A DNA stretch of 64,000 bases, taken from Lichina pygmaea (lineage: Eukaryota > Ascomycota > Lichinomycetes > Lichinales > Lichinaceae). This document shows, one piece after another, positions 12,856 to 62,346 of this stretch. The stretch spans positions 3,534,001 to 3,598,000 of the forward strand of contig OY730173.1 of assembly GCA_963422465.1 (NCBI GenBank), written 5' to 3'. Position 1 is the stretch's first letter. Each line of letters begins with the position of its first letter. The notes under the pieces were generated by a model. The model worked only from the letters and a program-made list of their open reading frames with translations. It was not told the origin of the DNA and did no database searches. Position numbers and translations under genes: made by a program.

Positions 12856-12953
12856 TGATGTGTTACGACCCAGGAGGAACACAGTCTTTATATACTCACA
12901 GAAAGCAGCAGACAGGATACTGGACAGAAGTACCAGACAGCGTGACACGGGAA

Positions 12954-12969
12954 CCGGTCACGTGACCGG
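12954..12969. promoter_or_regulatory. Perfect 16-bp palindrome, CGG-N8-CCG with CACGTG core
   Basis: CCGGTCACGTGACCGG. It combines an E-box-like TCACGTGA core with inverted CGG triplets spaced by 8. Inverted CGG triplets are the usual target form of Zn2Cys6 factors. The 3' LTR has the same site with one triplet altered; the TCACGTGA core is kept in the A LTRs at 1820 and 45048. Confidence 0.6.
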
Positions 12970-13197
12970 CAAGACAAACCAGGGGGTGCTCGCCGCAGCA
13001 TGCATATGCACGAACAAGTGAGCAAAGTGAGCAGAGCTCACCCAGCTCGCCGCAGCGTGCATGAAAAGTGAGCAAAGTGAGCAGAGCTCACCCAGCTCAC
13101 TGCAGCATGCATGAAAAGTGAGCAAAGTGAGCAGAGCTCACTTATCTCACCGAGTGAGCAAAGTGAGCAGAGCTCACTCTGCTCACGAACTGGGCAC

Positions 13198-13203
13198 TAT
13201 ATA
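13198..13203 (+). promoter_or_regulatory. Sense TATA box of the A-2 5' LTR
   Basis: CTATATAG at 13197-13204, kept in all A LTRs, about 36 bp before the GTCTTCAA motif at 13234-13241 that is complementary to the primer-binding region. This places the RNA start near 13230. Confidence 0.6.
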
Positions 13204-13439
13204 GTCTGGCGATAGTTCCCCTATGGAACAATCGTCTTCAACTCATGTTGTGATCCAGACAACTAGATCTACTTCAATACAATCCTTTGTACGAAGCCGT
13301 TGATCAGGTGTCACCACCACCATGTTCCACCAAACCCCTTCGCACTCCTTGACACTCCTCTCCTGCGAGAACCAACCCGCCTTCCACCTCTCGCCCTAAT
13401 CCTATACTCAGATAGGACGGTACAGTACAGACTGCAACA

Positions 13440-18332: not shown

Positions 18333-18737
18333 TCAAGTCAAATCCTCGCCATCCGACTCTATCTCTTTCACCAAGCACTGAAGCTTCTGCCTCGCACAGA
18401 CCTCGGCGCCCTCCAACACCTTTTGCTTCCGAGACAGACAAGCCTGCACTGTGGCAAGTTGTTCGAAGAGTGCATCACGTGTTGCCTTGTCAGTGGCAAC
18501 GTCCTCACGGAGGTTATCCCGGGACATGTTCAAAGATTCCCAGGACACAGAGACACAAGACCTTCCACGCCGAGTGCACGCAGCACATTTCAACTTATCG
18601 TCTTCTCCCGGCATCTGGAAGCACGGACGACCACGGAGAACACAAAAGTTGCAGGGCGTACGTGAAACAAAACTCCGATCACGGATTTGAGCAGCCAGCT
18701 GAGTTCAGCTAACAGTCGCACATGACTTTGGAGGCAT
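18333..18737 (-). pseudogene. A-2 antisense accessory ORF: Zn2Cys6-type cluster plus coiled coil, fossil
   Basis: Antisense to the element between pol and the 3' LTR. Cysteines are spaced C-x2-C-x6-C (CNFCVLRGRPC) then 11 residues then C-x2-C-x6-C (CAACTRRGRSC), inside the Zn(II)2Cys6 pattern of fungal transcription factors. A helical, Leu/Glu/Lys-rich stretch follows (DALFEQLATVQACLSRKQ). Homologous to 45777-46277 in A-4 and similar in plan to 56476-57006 in family B. This copy is broken (about one break). A TATATAAAG box lies upstream in the 3' LTR (18806-18814, minus). Confidence 0.65.
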
Positions 18738-18780
18738 GACCAGATTTCATCAAGATGATGAAAGATGGAGAGGGGGATAG

Positions 18781-19323
18781 TGTTACGACCCAGGAGGAAC
18801 ACAGTCTTTATATACTCACAGAAAGCAGCAGACAGGATACTGGACAGAAGTACCAGACAGCGTGACACGGGAACTGGTCACGTGACCGGCGAGACAAACC
18901 AGGGGGTGCTCGCCGCAGCATGCATATGCACGAACAAGTGAGCAAAGTGAGCAGAGCTCACCCAGCTCGCCGCAGTGTGCATGAAAAGTGAGCAAAGTGA
19001 GCAGAGCTCACCCAGCTCACTGCAGCGTGCATGAAAAGTGAGCAAAGTGAGCAGAGCTCACTCTGCTCACAAACTGGGCACTATATAGTCCGGCGATAGT
19101 TCCCCTATGGAATGATCGTCTTCAACTCATGTTGTGATCCAGACAACTAGATCTACTTCAATACAATCCTTTGTACAAAGCCGTTGATCAGGTGTCACCA
19201 CCACCATGTTCCACCAAACCCCTTCGCGCTCCTTGACACTCCTCTCCTGCGAGAACCAACCTGCCTTCCACCTCTCGCCCTAATCCTATACTCGGATAGG
19301 ACAGTACGGTACGGACCGCAACA
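18781..19323 (+). repeat. A-2 3' LTR
   Basis: 543 bp, TGTTACGACC to GACCGCAACA; one tandem unit (36 bp) fewer than the 5' LTR. On the reverse strand it carries a TATATAAAG box pointing toward the antisense ORF. Confidence 0.95.
18806..18814 (-). promoter_or_regulatory. Antisense TATA box in the family A 3' LTR
   Basis: TATATAAAG on the minus strand, 26 bp inside the LTR edge and ~70 bp upstream of the antisense ORF start at 18737. The matching place in A-4 has TATAAATAA (45698-45706, plus). Confidence 0.5.
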
Positions 19324-23223: not shown

Positions 23224-26200
23224 AGAATACAAAGTTCACACTTCTTCAATACAATGTGCAGAAAAGCCAATCAGTCCAAGAGCTACTTCTAGCAACCCCA
23301 ACTCTTCAAGAAGTAGATATTATTGCACTTCAAGAACCCTGGAAGAATCCTCACCTTCAAACCAGCACCTCAACTGTTTTTTCTTCTTTTCTTCCTTTAT
23401 ATTCTCCAGAGATTGGTAGAACTCTTTTTCTTATTAACAAAAACCTGAATCTGTCATCTCTCCACCCTACTTTCTGGAGTAAAGACTTTGTTTCTCTTGA
23501 AATTCATCTGGAAAACACCTCTACTTCTCTGTGGGTGCATAATCTATACTTCACTCCCTCAAGTCAAGAGAACTACCTACAAGCATCAGAAGCTCTTCTC
23601 TGTCTACTCCAAAATGCTTTACAAGCAAAAGGGCAGCATATTCTTCTTACAGACTCAAATCTTCACCACCCTGACTGGTCAAAGAAAAGAAGACTATATT
23701 CTGACACTGCACACAAGTTCCAAACTCTAATGAAAAACTCAAATCTGGAGTTAGCTATTGCACCTTTTACACCCACAAGAGCTAGATCTCTTTCCCACAA
23801 ACCCTGTTCACCTATTGATCTTTCCTTTATATCTTCTTCTCTTTCTAACTCTCTAATCTTTTCTAAAATTGCTTTGCAGTTCTTTCATGGGTCTGACCAC
23901 AGACCTGTGCTAACTAGCCTGGACCTGGACTCACCAAGAAAAACCTGGAAGCCAGAAAGGAACTGGAAAACACTGGACACAAACCTGGCAAAACAAGAGT
24001 GTAATAATTTGCAGCTGCCCTTCCACTTTCAAGATAAACATGAAGTGGATGAGTACTTGGAATATCTTAACCACTTTCTCCAAGAAATAGCAGACAGATG
24101 CACAGAACTCCAGAAGCAATCTAGCCACTCAGTCCCCTGGTGGAACCAAGAGATCCAAACTAAAGTTAAGCAGGAAAGAAGAATAAGAAGACAAGTGCTC
24201 AGAGGACAGGCAAGCCAAGAAGAGCTAGAAGAAGCAACTAAGCTCAAGAAGAAAGCTGTCAGAGAAGGCAAACAGAACACCTTCAGAAAACAAGTTCATG
24301 AGCTAGCCAGTTCCTCAAAATTCTGGAAGCTTGCAAAGTGGGGAAAATCAAAAGCTAACAAGACCCCTGATCTTCCTCTGGTCCCTGATCTGGAGACTCA
24401 AGAAGGACTAGCCAAAAGCTTTGAGGAGAAGACAAAATCTTTCTCAGCTCAATTCTTTCCAGAAGCACGTGTTCCAGAACCAAGTACAGAAAGTCACCAG
24501 AGTACCCCAGAGATCCAGCTTTCTCAGGAGGTTACCACTGAAGAAGTGGAGCAAATTCTGAACAAGAAGAAACCTTTTACAGCAGGAGGAAAAGACAAGC
24601 TGCCAAATGGATTTCTGAAAGCTCTGGGTCCCAAGTTCTGCCAAGCTATAGCTGTTCTCACATCAACATGCTGGAGACTGGAATACTTTCCAGAGAAATT
24701 CAAGAATGCAAAAACAGTCTGTCTAAGAAAACCTGGCAAGGGAATCTATAACCAAGCTAAAGCCTGGCACCCTATAGCTCTGCTAAACACAACTGGCAAG
24801 CTGATGGAAGCTATTACAGCAGCCAGACTAAGCAAGGTAGCAGAAGAGGCTAAACTCTTGCCAGAAATCCAGATGGGGTTCAGGAAAGGCAGATCAACTG
24901 AATCAGCACTTTTCCTTCTAACTTCCCAAGTGGAAAAAGTCTGGAAAGAAGGCATGGTTGCATCTCTACTTTCTCTGGACATCTCAGGAGCATATGACAG
25001 AGTTCTTCCAGAGATTCTTCAAAAGATTCTGGAGAGAAAAGGAATCCCTCTCTGGCTAACTTCTTGGATCTTCTCTTTCTGTACCAGACGTACCACCACT
25101 CTAGTTTTTGATGACTCTGAGTCCTCTTCTATTCCTATTCACTGTGGAGTTCCCCAAGGTTCCCCTTTGTCTCCTATTCTTTTTCTATTCTATATTTCTG
25201 AACTTCATGAGACTGTACATTCTCCTACTACTGGTGTTTCTGCTCTGGGATTTGCAGATGATACAAATCTGCTTGCATTTGGACACTCTCTTAAAAGCAA
25301 CCTTCTGAAGTTGAAGAATACACATCTTAAATGTCTATCTTGGGCTGCAAGACATGGAATGGTCTTCTCTCCTGAGAAATATGAAATACTTCATTTTTCC
25401 AGAAGAAGATCAGACAATCTGCAGCTCAAGCTTAGACTTGGGAATGTGATTCTAAAACCAAAAGAAGAAGTGCGAGTATTGGGAGTGTACCTGGATGCCA
25501 AACTCCACTGGCACAAACACCAGAGAATTATTCTTCAAAAAGCACAAAAAGCACTATCTTCTCTTTCTAGAACCTCTTACTCCACCTGGGGCTTTCCAGT
25601 TCTCACAGCACGCCTTGTGTACACTGCAATACTCAGATCTGTACTGAGCTATGCAGTGGGAATTTGGTTCAACCCACTCAGAAAATCCTCTAATATTTCC
25701 TCTCTTATCATATTCCAAAACAAATGTCTGAGACTTATTGGGGGTGCTTTCAAAGCCACTCCTTCTTTTCTATTAGAGAGTGAGCTTTTTCTTTTACCTC
25801 TAGATCTCTATTTTAAATTTCGCACAGCTTGTTTTCTATCTTCTATCCAAACCTCCTCTCTGAAAGACTTTCTTGACAGTACCTTTTCTACTATTTCTTC
25901 CTATGCTTCTTCACTGAGGAAACCTTTAAAGAAATCCTCAACTATCTCTCCTAATTGGAAGTTCACTTGGTTAAGTCAAATAACTACTAACCAGGCTAGT
26001 TCAAAGAAAGAACTACAAATACTCTTTACTAAAGAGTGGGAAAACCAATGGGAGGAGAAGAAAAGAAAAGGCTATGCTGGATGGCAGGTGTTTTGCCAAA
26101 AACCTCACTACAACAACCTAAAGCTCTACAAAGAGCTACAGAAAGCTGAGGCAAGTCTACTACTGCAAACCAGAACTGGGAGAATTGGTCTAGCAAGTTT

Positions 26201-26462
26201 TCTTTTCAGAGCTGGAGTCCCTGACTTTCCTACCCCCCTATGCATGTGTGGTCAAGCAGAAGAGACAGTAAAGCATATCACCTCTTCATGCTCTCTCTAC
26301 TCAAGTCAAAGACAACATGCTCTCTTTAACCCCCAAGATTTCACTACTATTATTTCAAACCCAGAGCTTCTACAGAAGTTTCTGTACTGGTTTATGTCTT
26401 TGAAAAGACTAAACCAATTTAATCTGGCTTTCAAACTTCACTATTCACACTCCAACATCTAG
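23220..26462 (+). CDS. L1a ORF2, endonuclease-reverse transcriptase
   Basis: 1080 residues, uninterrupted. An EEP endonuclease spans residues ~1-230 (LLQYNVQKSQ near 8, ALQEPWKNP near 35, LLTDSNLHHPDW near 145, catalytic-type S225-D226-H227). The linker is Lys/Glu-rich. RT is about 430-720: QMGFRKGRSTES, motif A SLDISGAYD with D587, motif B GVPQGSPLSP, motif C F678-A-D680-D681. A thumb/C-terminal region ends with a C1008-x-C1010-x8-H1019-x4-C1024 knuckle. No RNase H motif is seen after the RT. It would nick target DNA and prime reverse transcription at the site. All catalytic motifs I can check are present, so it may be active. Confidence 0.95.
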   Translation: MKNTKFTLLQYNVQKSQSVQELLLATPTLQEVDIIALQEPWKNPHLQTSTSTVFSSFLPLYSPEIGRTLFLINKNLNLSSLHPTFWSKDFVSLEIHLENTSTSLWVHNLYFTPSSQENYLQASEALLCLLQNALQAKGQHILLTDSNLHHPDWSKKRRLYSDTAHKFQTLMKNSNLELAIAPFTPTRARSLSHKPCSPIDLSFISSSLSNSLIFSKIALQFFHGSDHRPVLTSLDLDSPRKTWKPERNWKTLDTNLAKQECNNLQLPFHFQDKHEVDEYLEYLNHFLQEIADRCTELQKQSSHSVPWWNQEIQTKVKQERRIRRQVLRGQASQEELEEATKLKKKAVREGKQNTFRKQVHELASSSKFWKLAKWGKSKANKTPDLPLVPDLETQEGLAKSFEEKTKSFSAQFFPEARVPEPSTESHQSTPEIQLSQEVTTEEVEQILNKKKPFTAGGKDKLPNGFLKALGPKFCQAIAVLTSTCWRLEYFPEKFKNAKTVCLRKPGKGIYNQAKAWHPIALLNTTGKLMEAITAARLSKVAEEAKLLPEIQMGFRKGRSTESALFLLTSQVEKVWKEGMVASLLSLDISGAYDRVLPEILQKILERKGIPLWLTSWIFSFCTRRTTTLVFDDSESSSIPIHCGVPQGSPLSPILFLFYISELHETVHSPTTGVSALGFADDTNLLAFGHSLKSNLLKLKNTHLKCLSWAARHGMVFSPEKYEILHFSRRRSDNLQLKLRLGNVILKPKEEVRVLGVYLDAKLHWHKHQRIILQKAQKALSSLSRTSYSTWGFPVLTARLVYTAILRSVLSYAVGIWFNPLRKSSNISSLIIFQNKCLRLIGGAFKATPSFLLESELFLLPLDLYFKFRTACFLSSIQTSSLKDFLDSTFSTISSYASSLRKPLKKSSTISPNWKFTWLSQITTNQASSKKELQILFTKEWENQWEEKKRKGYAGWQVFCQKPHYNNLKLYKELQKAEASLLLQTRTGRIGLASFLFRAGVPDFPTPLCMCGQAEETVKHITSSCSLYSSQRQHALFNPQDFTTIISNPELLQKFLYWFMSLKRLNQFNLAFKLHYSHSNI

Positions 26463-27581
26463 AAGCTTTTCCTACCAGACACTACAAGATTTCCTTTTGC
26501 TACACTTTCTAGTCACCTCCCTGTCTTCAGTTTTTATTCCTTTAAAGGTTTTCTGAAGAAGTTCACTATTAGCTGGAAGATCTGCATGGCTGTAAAGCTA
26601 CAAACAGTGTAAGAATCAAATCAAATCAAAAAAACAGGCTTGACAGTGGGAAAAACACTTTGACAACATGAAGTACTCCAAGTTCTTGTGATCAGAGATC
26701 ACCTTGACAGGTTCTGGAGATCCTTCAAGCTCTGCTCACCATTCTTCAAAGACATGGACAATTGCCAGCAACTCTTTGTTGTAGATCTTGTAGTTGCATT
26801 CTGCCAGCAGGTGGTGGCGTGACAAGAAAGCAACAGGGTGTAGAACTCCTTCATGATCTGGCTGTGACAGGACAGCACCAGAGACATAGTCAGAAGTGTC
26901 AGTCTCAACAACACACTCCTTCTCCAGATCAAAGTGCTGCAGGATGAGTGCAGTACTGAATACCTTCTTGATGCTTTCAAACAAGCGCTGCTCTGGGGTT
27001 TCCCACTTGAAGGCAACATTCTTCTTGGTCGGAGCTGTGAGTGGGGATGCAAGCTTGGCAAAGTTTTTGATGAACTGGCAGTAGAAGTTTGCAAAGGCAA
27101 TAAAGCTCTGCACTTCCTTGAGACTGGCAGGAGGATTCCACTCCTTGATAGTGTCAGTCTTGGCTGGGTCCATGCTCACAGATCTGGGTTGGCCATCTTC
27201 AGTGGCAGACTGAATGATGAGACCAAGGTACTTGACTTGATGCACTTCAAAGTCACACTTGGAGATGTCAACTTGTAGGCTTACATCTCGTAGTCGACTG
27301 AGAACAAGCTTGACATGTATCTGGTGTTCCTTGAGTGTCTGACTGTAGACAAGGATGTTATCCACATAGGTAGTGCCAAAGACGTCAAGGATGTCAGGTC
27401 CCAAAACATCATTGATGTAGTTCTGGAATGTGCTTGGAGTATTGGCAAGACCAAAGGGCATGACAAGGTATTCGTAGAGGCCTGAGCGTGTGCGGAACAC
27501 AGTTTTCCATTCTTCAACTTCCTTCATCCAGATACAGTTGAAGACACCAACAATGTCAAGCTTGGTGTACCACACAGCTCT

Positions 27582-45047: not shown

Positions 45048-45732
45048 TGTTGCGGTCTGTACTGTACCGTCCTATCCAAGTATAGGATTAGGGCAAGAGG
45101 TGGAAGGCGGGTTGGTTCTCGCAGGAGAGGAGTGTCAAGGAGTGCGAAGGGGTTTGGTGGAACGTGGTGGTGGTGACACCTGATCAACAGCTTTGTACAA
45201 AAGGATTGTATTGAAGTAGATCTAGTTGTCTGGATCACAACATGAGTTGAAGATGATCATTCCATAAGGGAACTATCACTGGACTATATAGTGCTGGCCT
45301 GTCAAGACAATCAAGATTGTCTCGACAGTCTTGATGTCAAGACAGGTGAGATTGTCTTGACAGTCTCACTATGTTATGCACCCTGTGTTGAGACAGGTGA
45401 GATTGTCTTGATGCTTCATGCATCCTGCGTTGAGACTGGTGAGATTGTCTTGATGCTTCATGCATCCTGCGTCAAGACTGGTGAGATTGTCTTGATGCTT
45501 CATGCATCCTGTGTCAAGACTGGTGAGATTGTCTTGATGCTTCATGCATCCTGTGTTGAGACTGGTGAGATTGTCTTGATGCTTCATGCATGCTGCGTCA
45601 AGACTCCTGTGTGTGTCTCGACAGTCACGTGACCCCTTGTTGGTTGGTCACTTGACTTCCATGGTGTCCTCTTGCCTGGCCCGCAGCCTGATTGCCTATA
45701 AATAAGTGGCTCCTATCCCCTGGGTCGTAACA
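45048..45732 (-). repeat. A-4 3' LTR with its own tandem array
   Basis: 685 bp, longest A LTR here. The extra length is a tandem array at about 45330-45610 of ~42-bp units built on GTGAGATTGTCTTGATGC and TTCATGCATCCTG, five copies. The TCACGTGA core is kept. The long repetitive frame across the array is not a gene. Confidence 0.9.
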
Positions 45733-45776: not shown

Positions 45777-46277
45777 ATGTCTGCAAAATCACGTGCCTCT
45801 ACTTACCGAAACCAACTGGCAGCCCAGATCTGTGATCATAACTTTGTGTCACTTGCTCTGTGTGACTTTTGTGTTTTGAACCACAAGCCCTGCTTCCAAA
45901 TGTCTGACAACAACGATAAGTTGAAGTGCACTGAATGCACTCGTCGTGGGAAGTCCTGTGTGTCACTTTCTTGGGAGTTGTTGAACATGACTTGAGATAA
46001 CTTTCGCGAGGATTTGGCTGTTGATGAGGCCAAGCAGGATGCTCTTGTTGAGCAGCTTGCCAAGCTGCAGGCTCGTGTGTCCCGAAAGTGAAAGGTTCTT
46101 GAGGGTGCTGAGGGTCAAGCGAAGAAGAAGCTCCAGTGCCTTGTTGCTGAAATAGAGGTGGATGGTGAAGATTTGTCAGCGATGGTCATTGACGTGTCTG
46201 CGCTGCAGGCCAAGCTGTTCAGTCCTGCTTCTGCCAGAACTGCTGCAGGAGGAGCTGGCAGTTCGCGAGGTTCCTGA
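45777..46277 (+). pseudogene. A-4 antisense accessory ORF: Zn2Cys6-type cluster plus coiled coil, fossil
   Basis: Antisense to A-4, just inside the 3' LTR, starting MSAKSRASTYRNQL. Cysteines C29-x2-C32-x6-C39-x11-C51-x2-C54-x6-C61 fit the Zn(II)2Cys6 spacing. A Leu/Glu/Lys-rich helical region follows (QDALVEQLAKLQARVSRK, EGQAKKKLQCLVAEIE). A TATAAATAA box at 45698-45706 lies ~80 bp upstream in the LTR. The frame is broken, about two breaks. Homologue of 18333-18737. Confidence 0.65.
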
Positions 46278-49200: not shown

Positions 49201-50039
49201 CTTCTTTAGCCAAGGCATCCCCAAATAGATATCCTGAGTGGCCAACTTGACAATATCAAGGTGGATCCTTTCAGCATGGTGTCCGGTAACTATTTCCATT
49301 GGCTGCGTCTCATGGCAGACTAGCTCTGTCTGTCCATTTGCCATCGCGAGCTGATAGGGCTGCTGCTTACGTCTCCTTCCAGTGCCAAGGGTATCATAAA
49401 GTTGTCTTGAGATGTAGTTTCCACTGGCTCCAGAGTCCACAAGTGCGTATGTCTGTACTGGTGTGTTGGCGTGTAGTGACACAGGCAATCACAGGTGCTT
49501 TGCGTTGCTAGGGGTCATGTTGTTGAGCTCCCGATGTCACCCCTTGACAAGGGAGTTCAGTCTTTTCCTGATTGAAGTGTCTTTCCACTGACTGGGTAAT
49601 AGGTCCAGCCACTCCCATCAGTTCTGAGGAATCCGTTCATGAATTTGTCTTGCTGATGCTTGTCACATCCAGGCTTGAGGCAGTACTGCCAATTGTCAAC
49701 GTAGCAGTTGTAGTTGTTGCCTTGCTGTAGGAACATGAGGTGTTCATGCCAATCATGTGTGTGCCCAGGGAATGCGGTGTGTTGGCGTTTATCCCAAAGA
49801 TGGATCTCACACACATCCTTCTTGCAATTGACCCAATGCTTGTGGCAGGTGGTGTGGTTTTGATTTTGATTTGATTTTTGATTTGATTCTTACACTGTTT
49901 GTAGCTTTACAGCCATGCAGATCTTCCAGCTAATAGTGAACTTCTTCAGAAAACCTTTAAAGGAATAAAAACTGAAGACAGGGAGGTGACTAGAAAGTGT
50001 AGCAAAAGGAAATCTTGTAGTGTCTGGTAGGAAAAGCTT

Positions 50040-53000
50040 CTAGATGTTGGAGTGTGAATAGTGAAGTTTGAAAGCCAGATTAAATTGGTTTAGTCTTTTC
50101 AAAGATATAAACCAGTACAGAAACTTCTGTAGAAGCTCTGGGTTTGAAATAATAGTAGTGAAATCTTGGGGGTTAAAGAGAGCATGTTGTCTTTGACTTG
50201 AGTAGAGAGAGCATGAAGAGGTGATATACTTTACTGTCTCTTCTGCTTGACCACACATGCATAGGGGGGTAGGAAAGTCAGGGACTCCAGCTCTGAAAAG
50301 AAAACTTGCTAGACCAATTCTCCCAGTTCTGGTTTGCAGTAGTAGACTTGCCTCAGCTTTCTGTAGCTCTTTGTAGAGCTTTAGGTTGTTGTAGTGAGGT
50401 TTTTGGCAAAACACCTGCCATCCAGCATAGCCTTTTCTTTTCTTCTCCTCCTATTGGTTTTCCCACTCTTTAGTAAAGAGTATTTGTAGTTCTTTCTTTG
50501 AACTAGCCTGGTTAGTAGTTATTTGACTTAACCAAGTGAACTTCCAATTAGGAGAGATAGTTGAGGATTTCTTTAAAGGTTTCCTCAGTGAAGAAGCATA
50601 GGAAGAAATAGTAGAAAAGGTACTGTCAAGAAAGTCTTTCAGAGAGGAGGTTTGGATAGAAGATAGAAAACAAGCTGTGCGAAATTTAAAATAGAGATCT
50701 AGAGGTAAAAGAAAAAGCTCACTCTCTAATAGAAAAGAAGGAGTGGCTTTGAAAGCACCCCCAATAAGTCTCAGACATTTGTTTTGGAATATGATAAGAG
50801 AGGAAATATTAGAGGATTTTCTGAGTGGGTTGAACCAAATTCCCACTGCATAGCTCAGTACAGATCTGAGTATTGCAGTGTACACAAGGCGTGCTGTGAG
50901 AACTGGAAAGCCCCAGGTGGAGTAAGAGGTTCTAGAAAGAGAAGATAGTGCTTTTTGTGCTTTTTGAAGAATAATTCTCTGGTGTTTGTGCCAGTGGAGT
51001 TTGGCATCCAGGTACACTCCCAATACTCGCACTTCTTCTTTTGGTTTTAGAATCACATTCCCAAGTCTAAGCTTGAGCTGCAGATTGTCTGATCTTCTTC
51101 TGGAAAAATGAAGTATTTCATATTTCTCAGGAGAGAAGACCATTCCATGTCTTGCAGCCCAAGATAGACATTTAAGATGTGTATTCTTCAACTTCAGAAG
51201 GTTGCTTTTAAGAGAGTGTCCAAATGCAAGCAGATTTGTATCATCTGCAAATCCCAGAGCAGAAACACCAGTAGTAGGAGAATGTACAGTCTCATGAAGT
51301 TCAGAAATATAGAATAGAAAAAGAATAGAAGACAAAGGGGAACCTTGGGGAACTCCACAGTGAATAGGAATAGAAGAGGACTCAGAGTCATCAAAAACTA
51401 GGGTGGTGGTACGTCTGGTACAGAAAGAGAAGATCCAAGAAGTTAGCCAGAGAGGGATTCCTTTTCTCTCCAGAATCTTTTGAAGAATCTCTGGAAGAAC
51501 TCTGTCATATGCTCCTGAGATGTCCAGAGAAAGTAGAGATGCAACCATGCCTTCTTTCCAGACTTTTTCCACTTGGGAAGTTAGAAGGAAAAGTGCTGAT
51601 TCAGTTGATCTGCCTTTCCTGAACCCCATCTGGATTTCTGGCAAGAGTTTAGCCTCTTCTACTACCTTGCTTAGTCTGGCTGCTGTAATAGCTTCCATCA
51701 GCTTGCCAGTTGTGTTTAGCAGAGCTATAGGGCACCAGGCTTTAGCTTGGTTATAGATTCCCTTGCCAGGTTTTCTTAGACAGACTGTTTTTGCATTCTT
51801 GAATTTCTCTGGAAAGTATTCCAGTCTCCAGCATGTTGATGTGAGAACAGCTATAGCTTGGCAGAACTTGGGACCCAGAGCTTTCAGAAATCTATTTGGC
51901 AGCTTGTCTTTTCCTCCTGCTGTAAAAGGTTTCTTCTTGTTCAGAATTTGCTCCACTTCTTCAGTGGTAACCTCCTGAGAAAGCTGGATCTCTGGGGTAC
52001 TCTGGTGGCTTTCTGTACTTGGTTCTGGAACACGTGCTTCTGGAAAGAATTGAGCTGAGAAAGATTTTGTCTTCTCCTCAAAGCTTTTGGCTAGTCCTTC
52101 TTGAGTCTCCAGATCAGGGACCAGAGGAAGATCAGGGGTCTTGTTAGCTTTTGATTTTCCCCACTTTGCAAGCTTCCAGAATTTTGAGGAACTGGCTAGC
52201 TCATGAACTTGTTTTCTGAAGGTGTTCTGTTTGCCTTCTCTGACAGCTTTCTTCTTGAGCTTAGTTGCTTCTTCTAGCTCTTCTTGGCTTGCCTGTCCTC
52301 TGAGCACTTGTCTTCTTATTCTTCTTTCCTGCTTAACTTTAGTTTGGATCTCTTGGTTCCACCAGGGGACTGAGTGGCTAGATTGCTTCTGGAGTTCTGT
52401 GCATCTGTCTGCTATTTCTTGGAGAAAGTGGTTAAGATATTCCAAGTACTTGTCCACTTCATGTTTATCTTGAAAGTGGAAGGGCAGCTGCAAATTATTA
52501 CACTCTTGTTTTGCCAGGTTTGTGTCCAGTGTTTTCCAGTTCCTTTCTGGCTTCCAGGTTTTTCTTGGTGAGTCCAGGTCCAGGCTAGTTAGCACAGGTC
52601 TGTGGTCAGACTCATGAAAGAACTGCAAAGCAATTTTAGAAAAGATTAGAGAGTTAGAAAGAGAAGAAGATATAAAGGAAAGATCAATAGGTGAACAGGG
52701 TTTGTGGGAAAGAGATCTAGCTCTTGTGGGTGTAAAAGGTGCAATAGCTAACTCCAGATTTGAGTTTTTCATTAGAGTTTGGAACTTGTGTGCAGTGTCA
52801 GAATATAGTCTTCTTTTCTTTGACCAGTCAGGGTGGTGAAGATTTGAGTCTGTAAGAAGAATATACTGCCCTTTTGCTTGTAAAGCATTTTGGAGTAGAC
52901 AGAGAAGAGCTTCTGATGCTTGTAGGTAGTTCTCTTGACTTGAGGGAGTGAAGTATAGATTATGCACCCACAGAGAAGTAGAGGTGTTTTCCAGATGAAT

Positions 53001-53282
53001 TTCAAGAGAAACAAAGTCTTTACTCCAGAAAGTAGGGTGGAGAGATGACAGATTCAGGTTTTTGTTAATAAGAAAAAGAGTTCTACCAATCTCTGGAGAA
53101 TATAAAGGAAGAAAAGAAGAAAAAACAGTTGAGGTGCTGGTTTGAAGGTGAGGATTCTTCCAGGGTTCTTGAAGTGCAATAATATCTACTTCTTGAAGAG
53201 TTGGGGTTGCTAGAAGTAGCTCTTGGACTGATTGGCTTTTCTGCACATTGTATTGAAGAAGTGTGAACTTTGTATTCTTCAT
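50040..53282 (-). pseudogene. L1b ORF2, one nonsense codon
   Basis: Same 1080-codon frame as L1a ORF2, with a TAG replacing the Trp of KEWENQW (50451-50453; G to A). This gives 943 residues that include the whole endonuclease and RT but not the terminal knuckle. Other changes include NGF to NRF, SPI to SSI after the QGSPLS motif, and G to E beside SDHRP. Loss of the last 137 residues probably inactivates it. Confidence 0.93.
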
Positions 53283-54679
53283 GTAGACATTTCATCTTCA
53301 AAGATCTTGAAGGGGTTGACTGACTGCTTTCCCCCTGTGTTTGTTGATCTTGTAGACAGAATTTGCACTTCTGGAGACCCTCCTCTGAGTCTCTCTGAGC
53401 TTCTAGTTGGCTCTGTGGTTTTCCGTCTTTTTCCCCCTGGAAGAGTCTGTATGAAGGGGAAAGTAACTGGAGACTGTGTGACTGGGACAGTGGTAGCAGT
53501 GGAGATCTCATACTTCCCTGGGCGGGAAATCCATGCCTCTCTTGCCTTCTTGACTGCTTCTTGGCGTACTGGGCATGTGCTAGCCCAGGCTGGGTGAGCT
53601 CCTTTGCAGTTGCTGCATTTTGGCTTTAGCAGTTGCTCAGGGATTTGGCAGGTTCTTCTTTCATGCTGGCCTTCACAGGCACCACATACAGCTTGATTCC
53701 TGCACAGGCGAGCTTGGTGTCCATACCCAAAGCACTTGAAGCATTGTGCCACCACTGTGTTAGCCAGAAAAGGCTCTGCCTCATGCAATCTGTGGCCCAG
53801 CACTACTCCACTCTCAATTAGAAGATTGGCCTGTTCCGGGGTGGCCAGATCCAGGTGGAGTGAAGTAACTGGTTTCTTTTGAGCTATAGCCTTCTTTGAC
53901 CAGTAGGCTCTTAGAATAGTGATTTGCTTGCTCAGGGATGGGTTGCTGTTCTGGATAGTCTGGCGAGTTTTTTCCAGGTTTTCTGGCTGGATGTCTGTGG
54001 TTCTGACTCCATGAATCAACACTGGGAATCTCTTGGGTTGGATAGTTGCTTCCTTGGTAAAAATAGCTGATATCCAGGCAGAGTCTTTCTCCAGAAAACT
54101 CTTAGTCTCTTGGGTTTCAGTGTTAATAAGAATGTCCCCTGAGGGAAGTTTTCTCACTGCTCTGACTTGTTTATTATAGGGACTGGGGAGTCTGTCTTGG
54201 AGAGCTTGAAAAAGCTGGATGTGAGTCCTGTTGGCCATATCAGGTGTCTGGTTACCAGGGTGGACAAGAACTTCCTTCAGAATCCTTGGAGCTAGAGGGA
54301 TTTGAGCTGGGATATGTTTCTGAACAGCCTGGGCATATGATGGCTTAGATTCTTGCTTGTCTAGCCACTTGCTAATATTCTCCAGCTCCTGGAAAATCTT
54401 GTTGGTCAGACCAGTGGGGAGAGACTGGGTTTTGGTGGACTGGGCTTCATTAGTACAAGAGTTTTTCTTAATATTCTCCCAGCTTTTCAGTACAGATTCT
54501 GGGGTAGCTTGAGTCTTGAGCCATGAGTCCAGTAGGTTGTAGTCATTCTGGAGAGCTGGATAGGGGGTAGAAGAACTAGGCTGAGTACCAGCAGAACTGG
54601 GAGCTGGCATTGTTGGAGAAGGTGTTGTTTTTCTGGTAGTGTTCTGGGAGGAGTCCGGTTTCTTCTTTTTGACAGGCAT
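53279..54679 (-). CDS. L1b ORF1, intact
   Basis: 466 residues from ATG 54679 (MPVKKKKPD; the in-frame GTG upstream is rejected as for L1a). It differs from L1a ORF1 by about two residues: KWLDKQE for KRLDKQE (CGG to TGG type, a CpG change) and CEGQHER for CGGQHER in the second knuckle. ATGA overlap with ORF2. Confidence 0.92.
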   Translation of the reverse strand: MPVKKKKPDSSQNTTRKTTPSPTMPAPSSAGTQPSSSTPYPALQNDYNLLDSWLKTQATPESVLKSWENIKKNSCTNEAQSTKTQSLPTGLTNKIFQELENISKWLDKQESKPSYAQAVQKHIPAQIPLAPRILKEVLVHPGNQTPDMANRTHIQLFQALQDRLPSPYNKQVRAVRKLPSGDILINTETQETKSFLEKDSAWISAIFTKEATIQPKRFPVLIHGVRTTDIQPENLEKTRQTIQNSNPSLSKQITILRAYWSKKAIAQKKPVTSLHLDLATPEQANLLIESGVVLGHRLHEAEPFLANTVVAQCFKCFGYGHQARLCRNQAVCGACEGQHERRTCQIPEQLLKPKCSNCKGAHPAWASTCPVRQEAVKKAREAWISRPGKYEISTATTVPVTQSPVTFPFIQTLPGGKRRKTTEPTRSSERLRGGSPEVQILSTRSTNTGGKQSVNPFKIFEDEMST

Positions 54680-56032
54680 AGGGTAGGTAACCTGCACAGT
54701 GGGTTGTTCACAAAGGGTCACCTGGTTCCTAGCAGTAATTGCACAATCCTGGGACCACTCCCCAAGACTGTACTTTCCTGGGCAGTCTTTTCCAACTAGA
54801 CTCTAGGGAAATCTGGCTGTATTAACTCAAGCTGGAGACCACACCCCCTGCCTGAGCTTTCCTAGAGTTTTTCAACTCTACCAGCACTAGAGGCAAGCTC
54901 TAAACCATTTCTCTTATCCTGGGAGCCCTGATCTCCTTGATGCTAGATGTTTCTCTTGAGAGAAGTTCAAGCTGTTATCTGTCTGACTGGGAGTACTTGC
55001 TCAATCCTGGGACCACACCCCAAGACTGAGTGTTCCTAGGTAATTGGGGCCTGTCCCCAGTCTTTCAGAATCCCACTGGCCACTCTCTGCCTTGTTATAG
55101 ATAGTCTGTTGGTTGTTGAAGTTGAAGATCGAAGATTCAGAGATCACAACTTTTGACAAACAAGCTGGGTTACCCAAAGTGATGGGTTTTCACCTTAAGG
55201 TTTTGGTGGTTCCCAACAGATACTCGCTTGGTTTCCAGAACTTCTGACAAAGTCCGGTGATTATCAGAAGTGATGGTCCTTGAACGTAGTGGTACTGGGA
55301 AGAGTTTTTGTCGCAACCACTTACATGAGAGGCAATGCTTATTGATGGATCAAGCCCTACGTCAACAAACACCTCTCAGGAAACAGAGACCACGGCAGCA
55401 CAACAGAATAGATGACAAAATGGACACGATTCAAGGACAAGATCAAAAGGATCCTTGGACTATCTGACAAAGACAAAGTGGCTATACAAATGATCCAGCA
55501 CATCAAACAACAACGCTCAGCCGCAGAGTACACCACGCAGTTCAAACAATACTCAGTACTGACTGACTGGGACAACAATGCCCTGATGGTCATGTACTGA
55601 TGTGGACTCAAGGAAAACATGAAGGATGAAATCACCTTCAACAGACAAGCAGTCAACACACTGGACAAACTCATCGCACAAGCAATCAATATCGATGACA
55701 AGCTATTTGAGCAAGCGATGGAGAAACACCATGACGGAGGATACAGCCGCCCTGCATGGCATGTGAGCAACCACTACAAGCTGCCGTACAAGGCACCACC
55801 ACATGACCTATATGGCTATGCACCCATGGAACTGGATGCAGTCCACCACAAGGGAAGGTTCACAAAGGGAAGGAACAACAAAAAGAGGAAAGCACTGAAG
55901 TGCTATGCCTGTGGCAAGCTAGGCCACATGGTGAAAGACTGTTGTTCAAAGAACAAGGTGCACCGACAGCAACTTAATACACTCGACAGAGACTGGAATG
56001 TCATCAAGCCAGAGGACCCACCAGGAGAGGCT

Positions 56033-56423
56033 TGTTAAAGGCCAGTCCACGTTCACACAGAATGTGGGTGGTCCTGTCTTTGACCGAGGAGGGCAGGGAC
56101 TCAATAGATGAATAGCAAGGGGGGTAACTCTCTTGCTATTGTCGCTCGTAATGTGTGTTCAGCCTGGAGAGCTATTCTCTCCAGCTATCTGGGTTCTTAT
56201 ATACAGGAGCCTGAGGGGGGGGGGTCCTCCCAAGGGGTATCAGCTTTCTGCGTGGATGAGCTGGACGAGCTGGTTACATGTTGTCCACCTTGTCCACCGT
56301 GGACAAGCTGGACAAGCTGGTTACACATCGTCCACCTTGTCCACCAGGTCGGGTGAACATTGTTCTGTGTACCTCTGTACACTCGCTTCGGTCGGCTCAG
56401 CCGTTCCAGCCTGGGCCTTAACA
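56033..56423 (-). repeat. Family B 3' LTR
   Basis: 391 bp, TGTTAAAGGCC to GGCCTTAACA, a perfect short terminal inverted repeat. It contains CGGCTCAGCCG (56393-56403) and two ~47-bp repeats rich in GGACAAGCTGG/GTCCACC. Confidence 0.95.
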
Positions 56424-56475: not shown

Positions 56476-57006
56476 ATGACCCGGACATCTCGTGTTAATC
56501 GTCGTGGAGTCCTCAGTTCTCGTGTTGGCAAGATGGGCAAGGTATCCAAAGTTTCATGCAGCGCATGTCGTCATGACTGTGCCAAGTGTGTCATCAGTTC
56601 AGAGTCCACATTTTGTGGTCGGTGCCTTGAGAAGGGTCGCCGTTGTGATCTCCATCTCGCGGAGTCGGAGTGGGAGAAGATGGAGCTTGAGCGCACTCAG
56701 CTCAAGGCTCAACTGAAGGAGATCAAGGAGCAGGAGTCTGTTCTCCTTCCTCGCAAACTTCGTCTCCGTCATCAGTTGGGTGTGTTGTCCAAGAAGGAGG
56801 GTGAGGCCATCAAGTGTGAGCTTGCTGCGATCAAGGATCAGGAGGATCTTGAGCAGGAGGCTACGCGTGTGGAGTCCCCGCCACCTTTGGAGGACTTCTT
56901 CTCTTCGGAGGCTTTGGCTTCTCTCGAGCCTTTGTCTCCATCGATCCTGGCTTCTGCGGGTTTTGTCGGTGGAAACTCCGCAGTTTCTTGTTTGTCGCAG
57001 GGCTGA
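56476..57006 (+). CDS. Family B antisense accessory ORF: Zn2Cys6-type cluster plus coiled coil (looks whole)
   Basis: 176 residues, ATG 56476 to TGA, antisense to the element and 53 bp inside the 3' LTR. Cysteines C28-x2-C31-x6-C38-x8-C47-x2-C50-x6-C57 match the Zn(II)2Cys6 spacing, with basic residues (LEKGRRC) and one extra Cys at 35. Residues ~65-130 are heptad-like Leu/Glu/Lys (coiled coil), and an acidic, Ser/Pro-rich tail follows. Its last ~146 bp overlap, antisense, the 3' end of pol (stop at 56861-56863). Inference: a fungal-type DNA-binding protein encoded by the element. It could be an uncharacterised structural protein instead. Confidence 0.65.
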   Translation: MTRTSRVNRRGVLSSRVGKMGKVSKVSCSACRHDCAKCVISSESTFCGRCLEKGRRCDLHLAESEWEKMELERTQLKAQLKEIKEQESVLLPRKLRLRHQLGVLSKKEGEAIKCELAAIKDQEDLEQEATRVESPPPLEDFFSSEALASLEPLSPSILASAGFVGGNSAVSCLSQG

Positions 57007-60000
57007 AGTTCTCGGTGGGTTCCCACGAGTTCTCCTCATTGTCATACCCTAACCACTTGACCAGGTATTCAATTTTCCGTCCACTTCTCCGGCTGTCTAG
57101 GATCCTTTCAACATTGTACTCTTCTTTGTCGTCCTCGAAGTGCTATTCTGTTTTGATTACTGCGTCGCTGGGTGCTGGCTTGAGCAGCGAGACATGGAAT
57201 ACTCGGTGTATCCGTGCTTTTTTTGGCAGTCTCAGTCGGTAGTTGACTTCTCCAGTGCGCTTCTCAATCTCAAACAGTCTGATTCGTACATGATCCAGCT
57301 TTTTGCTCAGTCACTTCGAGCGCAGGTTTTTTGTTGACAAATAGACCTTATCCCCTCTCTCCAGGGTTGGTCCCTTCAACCTTTTGCTGTTTAGGTGGTG
57401 GCTTGTTGTCTTTTGTGCAGATTCAATTGCAGTCTTCATTTCCTCATGCATAGCAGTGAGTTTTTCGATGTTCGTTGAAGTGCCACTTCCAGCCGCCATT
57501 GCTTCCCAGCAGGGGTTTCTGCCGTAGTTTGCAAAGAACGGCGTCATGCCTGTCACGCTGTGTTGCTGATTGTTGTACACAAACTGAGCTATTGGTAGCA
57601 GTTCTACCCAATCGTCCTGTCAGTGGTTGACGTAGTGGTGTAGGTACTGTTCCATCGTCTGGTTTGTTCTCTCAGTTTGTCTGTCTGTTTGTGGATGGTA
57701 GGCAGTAGACATCCTTGTGTCTATCCCTAGCTGTTTTGTCCACGTGTTCCAGAATTTCAAGGTGAAGAGTTTGTCTCAATCCGAGATAATCTTCGTGGGT
57801 AGCCCTCGCTGGCTAACCAATTCTTTGAGCAGGACATTGGCGAGTTCGCTCACTGTTCCTGTCTCTCGCCACAGGATCAGGTGAGCGTATTTGGTGAGTT
57901 TGTCAACAACCACCAAGATACTGTCATATTTCACCTTTGTTACCGGGTCCTCTGACCTCGGCAGCTTCACCACAAAATCCATTGTGATGGTATCCCAAGC
58001 CACTTCTGGGAGGTCTATTTGTTGACTCTCTCCATAGGGTTTGTGGCGTGACAGTTTGTTTTTCGCACACTCTTCGCAGTTGCGAATAAATTCCGTCACT
58101 TTCCACTTCATTCTGTTGAAGTGGTAATGTCTCCAGATCTTTTCCAGGGTCTTGTCTCGCCCAGGATGTCTGTGTAGAGGTCCATCATGATGTTGTCAAA
58201 TCACATCCTCTTGTGCGCTCTCTGGCACTTCTTCCTTGTTCATGGCTGCAACGTTGTGGCCTAGGGTCAGGAGTGCACCCATTTCTTCAGTTTTCACTAA
58301 CTGAGGTTGAGCATAGACCAGAGTTTGTCCTTTTGTCACAAGGATTGGGCGCTCTTCTGTCGTGTCGTCTGTCGTCATATCAGGCCGCCTGCTAAGCGTG
58401 TCCGCTTGTGTGTTTTCTGATCCTTTTCGATAGAAGATCTGGAAGTCGTATGAAGCTAAAAGCTCTGCCCATCGGACTTGTTGTCTGTTTAGCTTCTTCG
58501 TCGTCGTGAAGTAAGCCAAATTCTTGTGGTCTGAGTACACGTCCACTGTGTACTTTGCTCCTTCCAGGTAAGGTCTCCACTCCTGGAATGTGTCGACAAT
58601 CACTAACAACTTCTTGTCGTGAACATCGTACCTGAGTTCTGGGCCAGAGAACTTTCTCGATCAGTATGCGACAGGGTGTAGGCAGTTTTTGGCGTCTGGT
58701 TGACACAAGCAAGATCCAAGTGCTTGGTCCGAGGCATCTGTCTCCATGATGATCTGCCATCCGGGATCAAATGATGCCAGTATGGGTGCGGAGGTGAACT
58801 TCTTTTTCAGCTCCTGGAACGCTCTCTCTTGGCTGTTCCCCCATGTGAAGGTTTCTTCCTTCTTTGTTAGTTCAGTCAAGGGTGCTGCTGTCCTTGAGTA
58901 CTCCTTGATGAATCGTCAGTAGAAGTTCGCAAATCCCAGGAAGGATTGGACTTCTTTGAGGTTTTTGGGTGTTGGCCAGTCTTGTACTGCCGTGGTCTTT
59001 GTATCATCCATACAGATTCCTTCTGTCGTCAGGATCAATCCCAAATATTCCACTTCTTTCACGTGGAAGACGCTCTTATCAAAGTGTAACCTCATTCCTG
59101 CTTTTTGGAGTACATGTAGGATCTTCTTGACATGCTGTCTGTGCTTCTCCAGGGTTCCATTGGTGTAAACCAAGACATCGTTGATATAAGCAGTAACAAA
59201 TATATCCAGGTATTGTCAGAGGATGATGTTAATAAGTGATTGGAACATCGCCGGTGCATTTGTAAGGCTGAATGGTATAACAGTATACTCATAATGCCCG
59301 TACCTTGTACGAAAGGCTGTCTTCCATTCTTCGCCATCTTTCATCCTAACCAGGTTGAAAGTGCCTCGGATGTCGAACTTGGTAAACCACTTGGCTCCTT
59401 GGATTCAGTCCTGGATTTCTGATATTAACAGTAGTGGGTAGCGATTCTTAATCGTGATCGAATTGAGCTGCCAGTAGTCGACGCACAGTCGTAATTTGCC
59501 ATCCTTCTTTGGCACAAACAATATCGGGTATCCGGCTGGTGATGTTGAAGGTCTTATGAACCCTTTCGCTAGGTTCTCGTCCAGGTAATCTCTTAAGGCC
59601 TCAAGTTCTTTTGCTGATAGAGCGTAAATAGGGCTGTGTGTGGGTTTCTTTCTGTCTTCCAGCGGAATTTCGTGATCCCACTCTTGGTGTTCTGGTAGTG
59701 TCGTGACCACTTCCTCACCAAACATCTCCTGGTAGTCTTTATACTCACTTGGCAGCTGCGGTGCCTGAGTCTCGCCCACGGCGTCATGCGTGGTGCAAAG
59801 TTGATGGTTTCGGGGCTTCATCCAAGCCACATAGGCTTGCCCTCACCGGTGGTGCTTCTTCCACCCTGCATATAAGATCTCTTTGATTCTCACTTTCTCT
59901 GGCTCTGCTCGAGTTGCCAGACTCCTCTTCGGAAAGACTAGGTGCCTTCTTTTCCAGTCAATCCTTGGGTTTTGACTTTCCAACCACGGAAGACCCAATA

Positions 60001-60430
60001 TAACTTCATGTGGTATCTGGACCAAGTCGAATTCTTCTGATCTGATTGTCGTACTGTCGACACACAGTTGTAGGTTCTTGGTCTCCTTCGTCACTTGTCC
60101 TTGGTTGTTGGAGAGTGGTGTCCCGTCCACTACCATTAGTTGATATGGATTCCTCTTTTCCTGAGTCAGGATCTTGTGCTTCCTGGCGAAACTTTCTGAC
60201 ATGAAGTTGCCAGTAGCTCCAGAGTTGATCATGGCGTTTGTCAGATGCCTGTTGACTCTCATCTTGATGCGAAAATGCGGACTGCAGGCTGTCGTGTCAA
60301 GGCTCTGCTTGACCCCTTCTCTCTGGAGTGTTGTCTTGCCCACTCTTCCGACTCTGGATTTGAAGAGCACTGCTAGTTTTTTGAACAACCAAGGCCCTGA
60401 GCCTGGTGTTCTGCTGCGTGTCTTTCGCAT
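56861..60430 (-). pseudogene. Family B pol region, fossil
   Basis: Protease (INSGATGNFMSES near 60200), RT ([20 protein letters not shown] near 59540), RNase H (DHKNLAYFTTTKKLNRQQVR near 58510; METDASDQALGS near 58740), integrase (MDFVVKLPRSEDP near 57970), C-terminal domain (LERGDKVYLSTKNL near 57340) and chromodomain (IEYLVKWLGYDNEENSWEP near 57060). Broken, several breaks. Confidence 0.9.
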
Positions 60431-60750: not shown

Positions 60751-61917
60751 TCATCGGAGTAGTGGTGTCTTGGGAACTGGTGGCATGCTGGTTATGTCAA
60801 TCTTGTAGTCTGTTGTGTCGAATTCGGAGATCAGGTCATCCTCCCAATAAACCTTATCAATCTGGTCTTGGGTTGCGTGCAGGTCCTCCAGTGACCTCTG
60901 CAGATTGTTCTCTAGTTTTTCGATGTGCTGTCTGAGATTGTCCTCCTGTCTGAGGAGTGTTGCTTCTGACCGGTTCATGGGTAGCGTGCCTCTGGGAGCC
61001 CTCAGTGGCTCCTGAATGCTCTTGCCTTTCCAGGCGCTGGTGGCATTCAACTGCTTACCCTTGCCTTCTTTCTTCTTCTTGCTTTGGCAGTTGGCTGCGA
61101 GGTGTCCTGCCTTCTGGCAATTGTAACACTTCCATGTTTCTTTCTTCTTTGTTACCTGTGGTGTTGTTGCATCAATCTCCATGGGTGTCAAGCTGTACTT
61201 GTCTTGTGCTGGCACTGTCTTTTTGCTCCATAGCCTTGCATGCTTGCCTCACTTCTCGAGTTCTTGTTCGAACTGTTGGTCGTTGATGTGTACCGCTGTG
61301 TTGATCATATCCTCAAGGTCGGTGGGTCAGTCTCCTCGTGCGATGTCATCCTTGACTTGTTCCTTGAGAGCTTGGTAGAATAGTGCTGTCAAGGCACTGT
61401 CTCCCCATTGCGTCCTCACTGACAACTGTTGGAACTTCGCCGCAAAGTCTGATGCTGACCCTGTCTGCCGTAGTGCTTGGAGCTTTTGTTCCACATCTTG
61501 TTCTTCATCAATGACCCCGAAGGTCTTCTTCATCTGGGTCTTGAAGGTAGAGAATCTCCCAATGATCTGCCGTGTTGTGGTCTCCATGCTAGAGGGATCT
61601 TCCTTGTTGTCGAGGAAGTCTTGTAGGTAGACATTGAACCAGGCAAACGTCGGTCCGTCCAGGTAGGAAGCTGTGAACAGCACCTTCTCCTGTTCCGTAG
61701 GGAATTGTGCGGTGTTGAATCTGTAGTAAAGCTCAAGCTGAGAGAAGAATAATTCCAATCCCCCTTGTGATCCATCATACCTCTTCGGCGTACCCACCTT
61801 CAACAGCTTTGGAGGTAAGGTGAGGGTGGTAGGGACAGGTGGTTCCTGGGCTTGCGCCTGAGGCGCAGCCCAAGCTTGGCCTGCCTGCGAAGGGGTAGGG
61901 CTGTGTGGATCTGCCAT
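60751..61917 (-). pseudogene. Family B gag region, fossil
   Basis: Starts MADPHSPTPSQAGQAW at 61917. Retrotransposon gag domain (LELFFSQLELYYRF, FAAKFQQLSVRTQWGDSAL), then a CCHC knuckle CYNCQKAGHLAANC near 61110 and a helical Gln/Glu-rich tail. Broken, few breaks. Confidence 0.88.
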
Positions 61918-61955: not shown

Positions 61956-62346
61956 TGTTAAAGGCCAGTCCATGTTCACACAGAATGTGGGTGGTCCTGT
62001 CTTCGACTGAGGAGGGCAGGGACTCAATAGATGAATAGCAAGGGGGGTAACTCTCTTGCTATTGTCGCTCGTAATGTGTGTTCAGCCTGGAGAGCTATTC
62101 TCTCTGGCTATCTGGGTTCTTATATACAGGAGCCTGAGGGGGGGGGGTCCTCCCAAGGGGTATCAGCTTTCTGCGTGGATAAGCTGGACGAGCTGGTTAC
62201 ACGTCATCCACCTCGTCCACCGTGGACGAGCTGGACAAGCTGGTTACACATCGTCCACCTTGTCCACCGGGTCGGGTGAACATTGTTCCGTGTACCTCTG
62301 TACACTCGCTTCAGTCGGCTCAGCCGTTCCGGCCTGGGCCTTAACA
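61956..62346 (-). repeat. Family B 5' LTR
   Basis: 391 bp. TATATAAG box (minus, 62119-62126); AGGCTGAA (minus, 62081-62088) 38 bp downstream of the TATA start is complementary to the site 2 bp beyond the LTR (61946-61953). Confidence 0.95.
62316..62326. promoter_or_regulatory. CGG-N5-CCG palindrome in the family B LTR
   Basis: CGGCTCAGCCG, present in both B LTRs (also 56393-56403), followed in the 5' LTR by another CCG two bases on. A candidate Zn2Cys6-type site. Confidence 0.45.

Follow-up and report, generated by a model that had tools for sequence, protein, structure and literature searches.

An antisense gene for a Zn2Cys6-like protein and its adjoining U3 arrays as a putative cassette of Lichina pygmaea chromoviruses

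In a 64,000-nucleotide stretch of the Lichina pygmaea genome (assembly GCA_963422465.1, contig OY730173.1, positions 3,534,001 to 3,598,000 of the forward strand; from here on, the window), a chromovirus that we refer to as family B lies on the minus strand and carries, antisense to it, a gene that is under purifying selection and encodes a small protein with a six-cysteine cluster (Table 1). A preliminary description of the window had reported such small antisense open reading frames (ORFs) in family B and in two copies of a second chromovirus family, A, and we confirmed them; the central cysteine spacing is x8 in family B and x11 in both window copies of family A. Sequence comparisons suggest that the antisense gene and the U3 region of the long terminal repeat (LTR), with its inverted-repeat arrays, form one cassette, which is what is new here. 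With slightly more confidence than doubt, we favor the explanation that the gene product acts as a dimer to regulate the U3 of its own element.

We searched the genome (32.5 Mb on 8 contigs, with 27 Zn_clus matches) using the antisense proteins as queries. All genome counts are lower bounds, with 150 places scored of 279 candidates for the B1 query, 490 for family A and 506 for the family A relative P0018. The window family B protein, which represents subfamily B1, matched 61 places at 84-100% identity (B1) and 89 places at 58-68%, and 53 of the former 61 had no stop in the matched frame. For closer reading, we used the best-scoring 30 B1 and 30 A1 loci together with 19 B2 copies and 1 B3 copy mostly picked as stop-free; the intactness of B2 and B3 is therefore a product of how they were picked, and the copy counts do not represent a random sample. 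The six cysteines of the window copies are kept elsewhere: the pattern is present in 27/30 B1, 18/19 B2 and 29/30 A1 copies and in 0/1 B3 copies. Premature stops were absent from 29/30 B1, 6/30 A1, 19/19 B2 and 0/1 B3 copies. Both window copies of family A are broken, and intact 166-codon relatives, including the A2 copy L106, are present elsewhere in the genome. Among the variable columns of the antisense-gene copies, 63/91 (B1), 71/123 (A1, without the frame-shifted L046) and 76/116 (B2, 16/19 rows) are of the CpG type. We note that C/T or G/A changes of this type in copies L001-L080 turn arginine codons into codons for Cys, His, Gln or Trp or into stop codons.

The preliminary description had placed the gene between pol and the 3' LTR. 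It does lie antisense there, but the wording was slightly loose, as pol overlaps approximately its final 49 codons (the sense stop was read on copy L001, which covers this part of the window). Outside this overlap, the antisense frame had a ratio of nonsynonymous to synonymous substitution rates (dN/dS) of 0.20 and no stops between B1 and B2 (570 pairs, including all 30 B1 rows; an earlier B1 selection run used 12/30), and dN/dS decreased to 0.08 in the zinc-cluster codons 22-60. With CpG sites masked, the values were 0.20 and 0.10, respectively. The other five frames had dN/dS values of 0.40-2.08 and 2.5-9.1 stops per pair, with 4.9-7.0 stops per pair in the three sense frames; the value of 0.40 belongs to the sense frame mirroring the wobble position, which had 7.0 stops per pair. 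Inside the overlap, dN/dS was 0.46 for the antisense frame and 0.34 for the lowest sense frame. In family A, 29 A1 copies (excluding the frame-shifted L046) compared with the broken window A2 copy gave a dN/dS of 0.09, and 6 intact A1 copies compared with intact L106 gave 0.16; the mirror sense frame in the comparison with L106 gave 0.26 with 6.5 stops, and the differences between L034 and L106 were distributed 36/25/76 over the codon positions. Given the low dN/dS and the lack of stops in the antisense frame and the stops in the sense frames, we conclude that it represents a genuine gene under purifying selection between subfamilies, in agreement with the earlier suggestion that it has been retained.

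Relatives were recovered in three protein searches with 13, 60 and 230 matches at the respective cut-offs. The six-cysteine pattern was present in 74 of 150 returned proteins, with only half of it in 45 and neither half in 31, many of these being incomplete; among proteins of at least 140 amino acids, 49 of 56 had the pattern. The relatives include diverse proteins of 162-177 amino acids on short contigs, and one source is a metagenome-assembled genome of Watsoniomyces obsoletus, from which the protein is incomplete. For family A, we hand-picked 26 sequences from the 230 matches (120 listed) and earlier searches (alignment A4); the six cysteines are present in 20 of 26 rows, the remaining 6 rows being incomplete, and the full-length rows from short contigs have 33-48% identity to the first row. 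A family A gene of the P0018 type was not among the 150 of 506 genome places scored (best identity, 66%), and a scan of viral contigs with the protein P0078 returned no relative. The family A relative P0068, from a 1194-base contig, carries a precomputed Pfam label (PF27583.1).

The window B1 frame has the pattern C28-x2-C31-x6-C38-x8-C47-x2-C50-x6-C57. The Zn2Cys6 family (Zn_clus, PF00172) has the spacing C-x2-C-x6-C-x5-16-C-x2-C-x6-8-C, and the antisense proteins of families A and B both fit it. Using VIA-align to compare predicted models, we found that all 16 listed fold rows for the B model (predicted local distance difference test score [pLDDT] of 81-85 in the cluster blocks) were Zn2Cys6 DNA-binding domains, at low Z, with the core matching GAL4, CYP1 and LAC9 at 1.9-2.3 A over 33-38 residues. 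Similarly, 10/10 listed rows for the A model (mean pLDDT, 86.5) were Zn2Cys6 at low Z, including AlcR, Pho7 and LAC9, which we take to belong to this class. In both models, the predicted binuclear cluster fold is followed by a linker and a coiled coil; the coiled coil noted earlier corresponds to a long helix in the predicted folds, and in B1 this helix (residues 63-131) is probably a dimerizing coiled coil. In profile-profile comparisons with 18 host Zn_clus domains (18 of 20 stretches, the 2 without a pattern match having been dropped), E was 4.2e-5 for A4 (without P0115) and 5.5e-4 for B. In profile searches of PDB, Zn2Cys6 chains made up 9/18 matches for the A1 query and 6/7 matches over the cluster for the A4 query, all at E > 0.2. 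In Zn2Cys6 proteins, cysteines 2 and 3 flank a basic recognition stretch. A stretch of this kind (RRDRAK type) is present in many B copies and largely absent in family A, in which the second half is basic. Between B1 and B2, residues 22-60 are 71% identical and the next stretch 68%, so that the protein identity of the cluster is little above that of the coil despite its lower dN/dS. The preliminary description held that the two families share the plan but little sequence; this stands, but their common descent is not demonstrated by 25-27% identity and a profile comparison with a probability of 7.6% (E 0.0046).

Four cassette types have tandem inverted-repeat units in U3, of 47 or 69 bp in B1, 35 bp in B2, 42 bp in A1 and 50 bp in A2. 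An array was found in the adjoining U3 of 27/30 B1, 19/19 B2, 29/30 A1 and 0/1 B3 copies, each of its own cassette type; where arrays of a different type occurred at greater distance in the flanks, we took them as neighboring copies. The longest exact arms (B1, B2, A1 and A2, respectively) are 9, 8, 7 and 7 nt, with P values of 0.001, 0.003, 0.035 and 0.034 in mononucleotide shuffles (lowest P among 9 control arrays, 0.24) and of 0.02, 0.013, 0.10 and 0.23 in dinucleotide shuffles. B1 and B2 have the arm core GGACGAG in common, at different spacing. The arrays are located upstream of the sense TATA, for which TATATA in the B1 LTR is probably the core promoter element. In family A, the array has the sense TATA on one side and, on the other, an antisense TATA, which is located at -79/-80 from the antisense ATG in 30/30 A1 copies and at -77 in L106. 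We also observed a palindrome, GTCACGTGAC, that is common to the otherwise unalike U3 regions of A1 and A2 (L034, L106 and the window A2 copy) and lies in the segment that separates the array from the antisense TATA.

To compare the cassette with the rest of the element, we used non-CpG distances and, for pol, the 1.2-kb stretch most distant from the antisense gene at each locus. B1 and B2b differed by 0.007 in pol and by 0.260 in the antisense ORF, whereas B2b and B2c differed by 0.196 and 0.054, respectively. Here, B2b denotes the 12/19 B2 copies with a B1-type pol and B2c the 7/19 (L074-L080) with another pol of approximately 77% identity. For 8 B1 and 8 B2 copies, similarity between types was about the same as that within types in pol and on the R-U5 side of the LTR, which was not the case for U3 and the antisense gene, and the pol stretch had one fixed non-CpG difference between B1 and all B2 copies. 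The second-best genome match to the window pol piece adjoins an antisense frame of B2-like identity (65%). In family A, the pol distance of the single A2 copy to A1 (0.033) equals that among A1 copies (0.033), and this copy differs from 8 A1 copies in the U3 upstream of the TATA and in the antisense gene. In approximately unbiased (AU) tests, a clade of B1 and B2b was rejected on the cassette (p 0.0017; 9e-45), and on pol it gave p 0.645, where the held tree beat the free search, and p 0.045. Based on the conflicting distances and site patterns, rather than on the pol topology tests, we propose that the cassette and pol reassort. The break points, which lie close to the U3/R border and to the pol end, would fit template switching between co-packaged RNAs.

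We suggest that these features could be explained as follows. A transcript initiated on the antisense strand within the 3' LTR would yield a small protein, putatively a dimeric DNA-binder of the Zn2Cys6 plan in which the zinc cluster precedes a long coiled coil. This protein would act on its own U3, with the tandem inverted-repeat units as the target, and could in this way determine how strongly the element and the antisense gene itself are transcribed. Elements sharing a pol chassis would exchange the gene and U3 as a cassette, with template switching in the course of reverse transcription as the simplest route. We infer expression, dimerization and the binding of zinc and DNA, as well as the role of the array as target, the sign of regulation and the exchange mechanism; what the analysis itself provides is coding selection, a predicted fold, the arrays, TATA-like boxes and conflicting cassette and pol distances.

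Several results weigh against this explanation. No protein scanned reached the Pfam cut-off for Zn_clus (21 bits; best, 18.7 bits for P0094), and the window B1 protein had no Zn_clus match at E <= 10. The Zn2Cys6 identity initially proposed for the ORFs is therefore upheld by the plan and the predicted fold rows but not by the Pfam search, and because the cut-off was not reached, we refer to the proteins as Zn2Cys6-like, outside formal Zn_clus membership. No antisense TATA was found in family B on the same inspection that revealed it in family A. On pol, AU tests did not reject a single clade of all B2 copies (p 0.326, 0.395 and 0.194; the run giving p 0.194, as well as 0.045 and 9e-45 above, used 19/50 B rows). 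Moreover, the B1/B2 label required 7 changes on the pol tree compared with 9-19 when shuffled; therefore, cassette type is partly structured on pol and does not mix freely.

By analogy with phages, the antisense gene and the U3 array could even form a cognate repressor (or activator)/operator pair like an immunity region, which would govern copy number among elements that share a U3 type. Swaps of whole cassettes by elements on one pol chassis would then escape or re-specify this control, giving "heteroimmune" B1, B2 and B3 and, in family A, A1 and A2 within a single genome. We regard this extension as doubtful, if attractive.

Among the alternatives, the one that survives best, and that we nevertheless consider unlikely, is that the protein is real but acts elsewhere (nuclear import, integration-site choice or host genes), with U3 being swapped for promoter reasons and the gene hitchhiking. 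U3 and the antisense gene are neighbors; divergence limited to U3 is known in crapaud (PMC10787394, a paper that does not use the word antisense) and, from passages, in Tnt1 (PMC1838419); and the maize Grande antisense protein is described as nuclear. However, the fold is predicted to be that of a DNA-binding domain with sequence specificity, accompanied by a coil, inverted-repeat arrays are found in the U3 of B1, B2, A1 and A2, and the antisense gene is itself strongly selected. We find it improbable that the cysteine-rich domain is another zinc-binding module, for RNA chaperoning or protein-protein contacts, that resembles Zn2Cys6 by spacing alone. The unreached Zn_clus cut-off, the Cys-fixed controls of the profile comparison, the deviating charge pattern of family A and weak matches to DUF3716 (PF12511; 13.8 bits for P0015 and 12.9 bits for P0112, below its cut-off of 22 bits) are in line with such a module, but the rows listed for the A and B models are exclusively Zn2Cys6 domains, and the chains recovered in the PDB profile searches, at E > 0.2, point in the same direction. 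ORFs with DUF3716 and a zinc-cluster-like cysteine pattern occur at L081-L085 and 9 more genome places (9/14 matches above the cut-off), and these are possibly relatives or domesticated forms; a search of the open-licence literature for DUF3716 yielded no paper.

Still less probable is that the antisense RNA itself is useful, through control of the element by double-stranded or small interfering RNA, and that the open frame is incidental. The antisense TATA of family A and a review passage stating that retroelement antisense RNAs can feed silencing agree with this idea; yet constraint acts at the amino acid level in one antisense frame, with an excess of third-position differences, and the six cysteines persist in A4 despite 33-48% identity. 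Because an RNA function predicts neither frame constraint nor cysteine retention, this alternative is weakened. Finally, the pol overlap and the low dN/dS of the wobble-mirroring sense frame could hint at chance or a shadow of sense-strand coding, a reading that we judge refuted by the stops in the sense frames outside the overlap, the stop-free antisense frame with its dN/dS of 0.20, and the full-length homologs on other contigs.

The family B element is a chromovirus (Ty3/gypsy), with gag and pol parts between LTRs of 96% identity and a terminal chromodomain; reverse transcriptase and integrase had no Pfam match in the broken pieces of the element scanned. No LTR pair was found for the window A1 copy. 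Rfam and tRNA scans of the 64-kb window were empty. The window also contains an inverted pair of copies resembling long interspersed nuclear elements (RVT_1, Exo_endo_phos_2; 21195-26625 and 49877-55307) that are 100% complementary over 5431 nt and probably very recent.

Table 1. Antisense genes, host elements and U3 features in the window
Feature	Position	Strand	Basis or remark
Family B (B1) antisense gene, 176 codons	56476..57006	+	Open frame, purifying selection
Six-cysteine cluster, residues 28-57	56557..56646	+	Sequence, structure model, fold rows
Long predicted helix, residues 63-131	56662..56868	+	Structure model
Tail-to-tail overlap of B1 antisense gene with sense pol C-terminus	56861..57006	.	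Sense stop 56861-56863
Chromodomain (sense) and pol tail, family B	56864..57142	-	Pfam Chromo, E 4.9e-16
RNase H, family B	58196..58609	-	Pfam
Protease, family B	59843..60430	-	Pfam
Zinc knuckle part of gag, family B	60751..61215	-	Pfam
gag (Retrotrans_gag, Ty3_capsid), family B	61327..61917	-	Pfam
3' LTR, family B	56033..56423	-	LTR pair
5' LTR, family B	61956..62346	-	LTR pair
TATATA, B1 LTR (probable sense core promoter)	56198..56203	-	Near the point where B1 and B2 LTRs start differing
U3 tandem array, B1 3' LTR, 47-bp units with inverted-repeat arms	56251..56345	.	
Matching array, B1 5' LTR	62174..62269	.	
Family A (A1) antisense gene, broken	45777..46277	+	Two premature stops
A1 tandem array, 42-bp units	45376..45605	.	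Assigned to U3 via alignment with A2
Antisense-oriented TATA, 80 nt upstream of A1 ATG	45697..45702	+	Position derived
Family A (A2) antisense gene, broken	18333..18737	-	Stop at codon 11, early end
3' LTR, A2	18780..19323	+	LTR pair
5' LTR, A2	12860..13439	+	LTR pair
A2 U3 tandem array, 50-bp units (GTGAGC..GCTCAC)	18927..19070	.	
Matching array, A2 5' LTR	13006..13152	.	

The antisense proteins resemble GAL4, HAP1, PUT3 and LAC9 in the spacing of the six cysteines and in the predicted fold with its linker and coiled coil. Zn2Cys6 factors recognize inverted or direct repeats, and most do so as dimers. The Lichina proteins differ from GAL4-type factors in being encoded antisense in a retrotransposon, in their size of 166-190 amino acids, in lying below the Pfam cut-off and, for family A, in a cluster whose second half carries basic residues. 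HBZ of human T-cell leukemia virus type 1 is a basic leucine zipper protein instead of a zinc-cluster protein. Mentioned in PMC11963269, it is an antisense regulator gene of a retroelement, as the Lichina gene may be; its antisense promoter in the 3' LTR is described in PMC7264820. In crapaud of Podospora (PMC10787394) and Tnt1 (PMC1838419), U3 diverges and the remainder is alike. The divergence in crapaud lies upstream of the TATA, and the crapaud paper discusses template switching; the passages report no antisense gene moving with U3.

The preliminary description knew of no such antisense gene, but an antisense gene at this position is itself not new. The gene brtn was reportedly described by Zhao et al. 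in Virology in 2011. Passages citing it (PMC7264820, PMC8365987, PMC4227169 and PMC5987419) describe an antisense gene of Boty-like retrotransposons in Botrytis cinerea, located, as in Lichina, between pol and the 3' LTR of a fungal Ty3/gypsy element with a chromodomain; compared by description only, these passages name no zinc cluster, U3 arrays or cassette exchange. Plant Grande (gene23), RIRE2 and Retand carry antisense ORFs (aORF-3R) that, in passages of PMC7264820 and PMC11963269, are likewise located between pol and the 3' LTR and kept in most copies; the Grande protein is nuclear and the Retand protein predicted to bind DNA, and about half of the Retand elements studied have tandem repeats in the aORF-3R region. 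In contrast to the Lichina gene, these ORFs have TRP28, SMC or unknown domains and no zinc cluster, Retand belongs to a non-chromovirus lineage, and the passages report no co-exchange of U3 and gene. By its sequence, the Lichina gene would count as an aORF-3R, being an antisense coding frame kept across copies with partial pol overlap. In the open-licence literature, the titles and abstract starts among the matches listed contained no description of an antisense zinc-cluster gene in a retrotransposon, and no U3/antisense-gene cassette appeared among the matches listed; passages on fungal LTR elements in PMC3248453 and PMC4427930 do not mention antisense.

According to a review passage, it is not known what antisense accessory genes do in LTR retrotransposons. 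The Lichina case offers such a gene with a recognizable DNA-binding plan and a plausible adjacent target, and the exchange pattern makes the pairing of regulator and target testable by simple binding and reporter assays. If our explanation is true, retrotransposons encode transcription factors of the fungal kind for themselves and trade regulator/operator modules in a manner resembling the exchange of immunity regions among phages.
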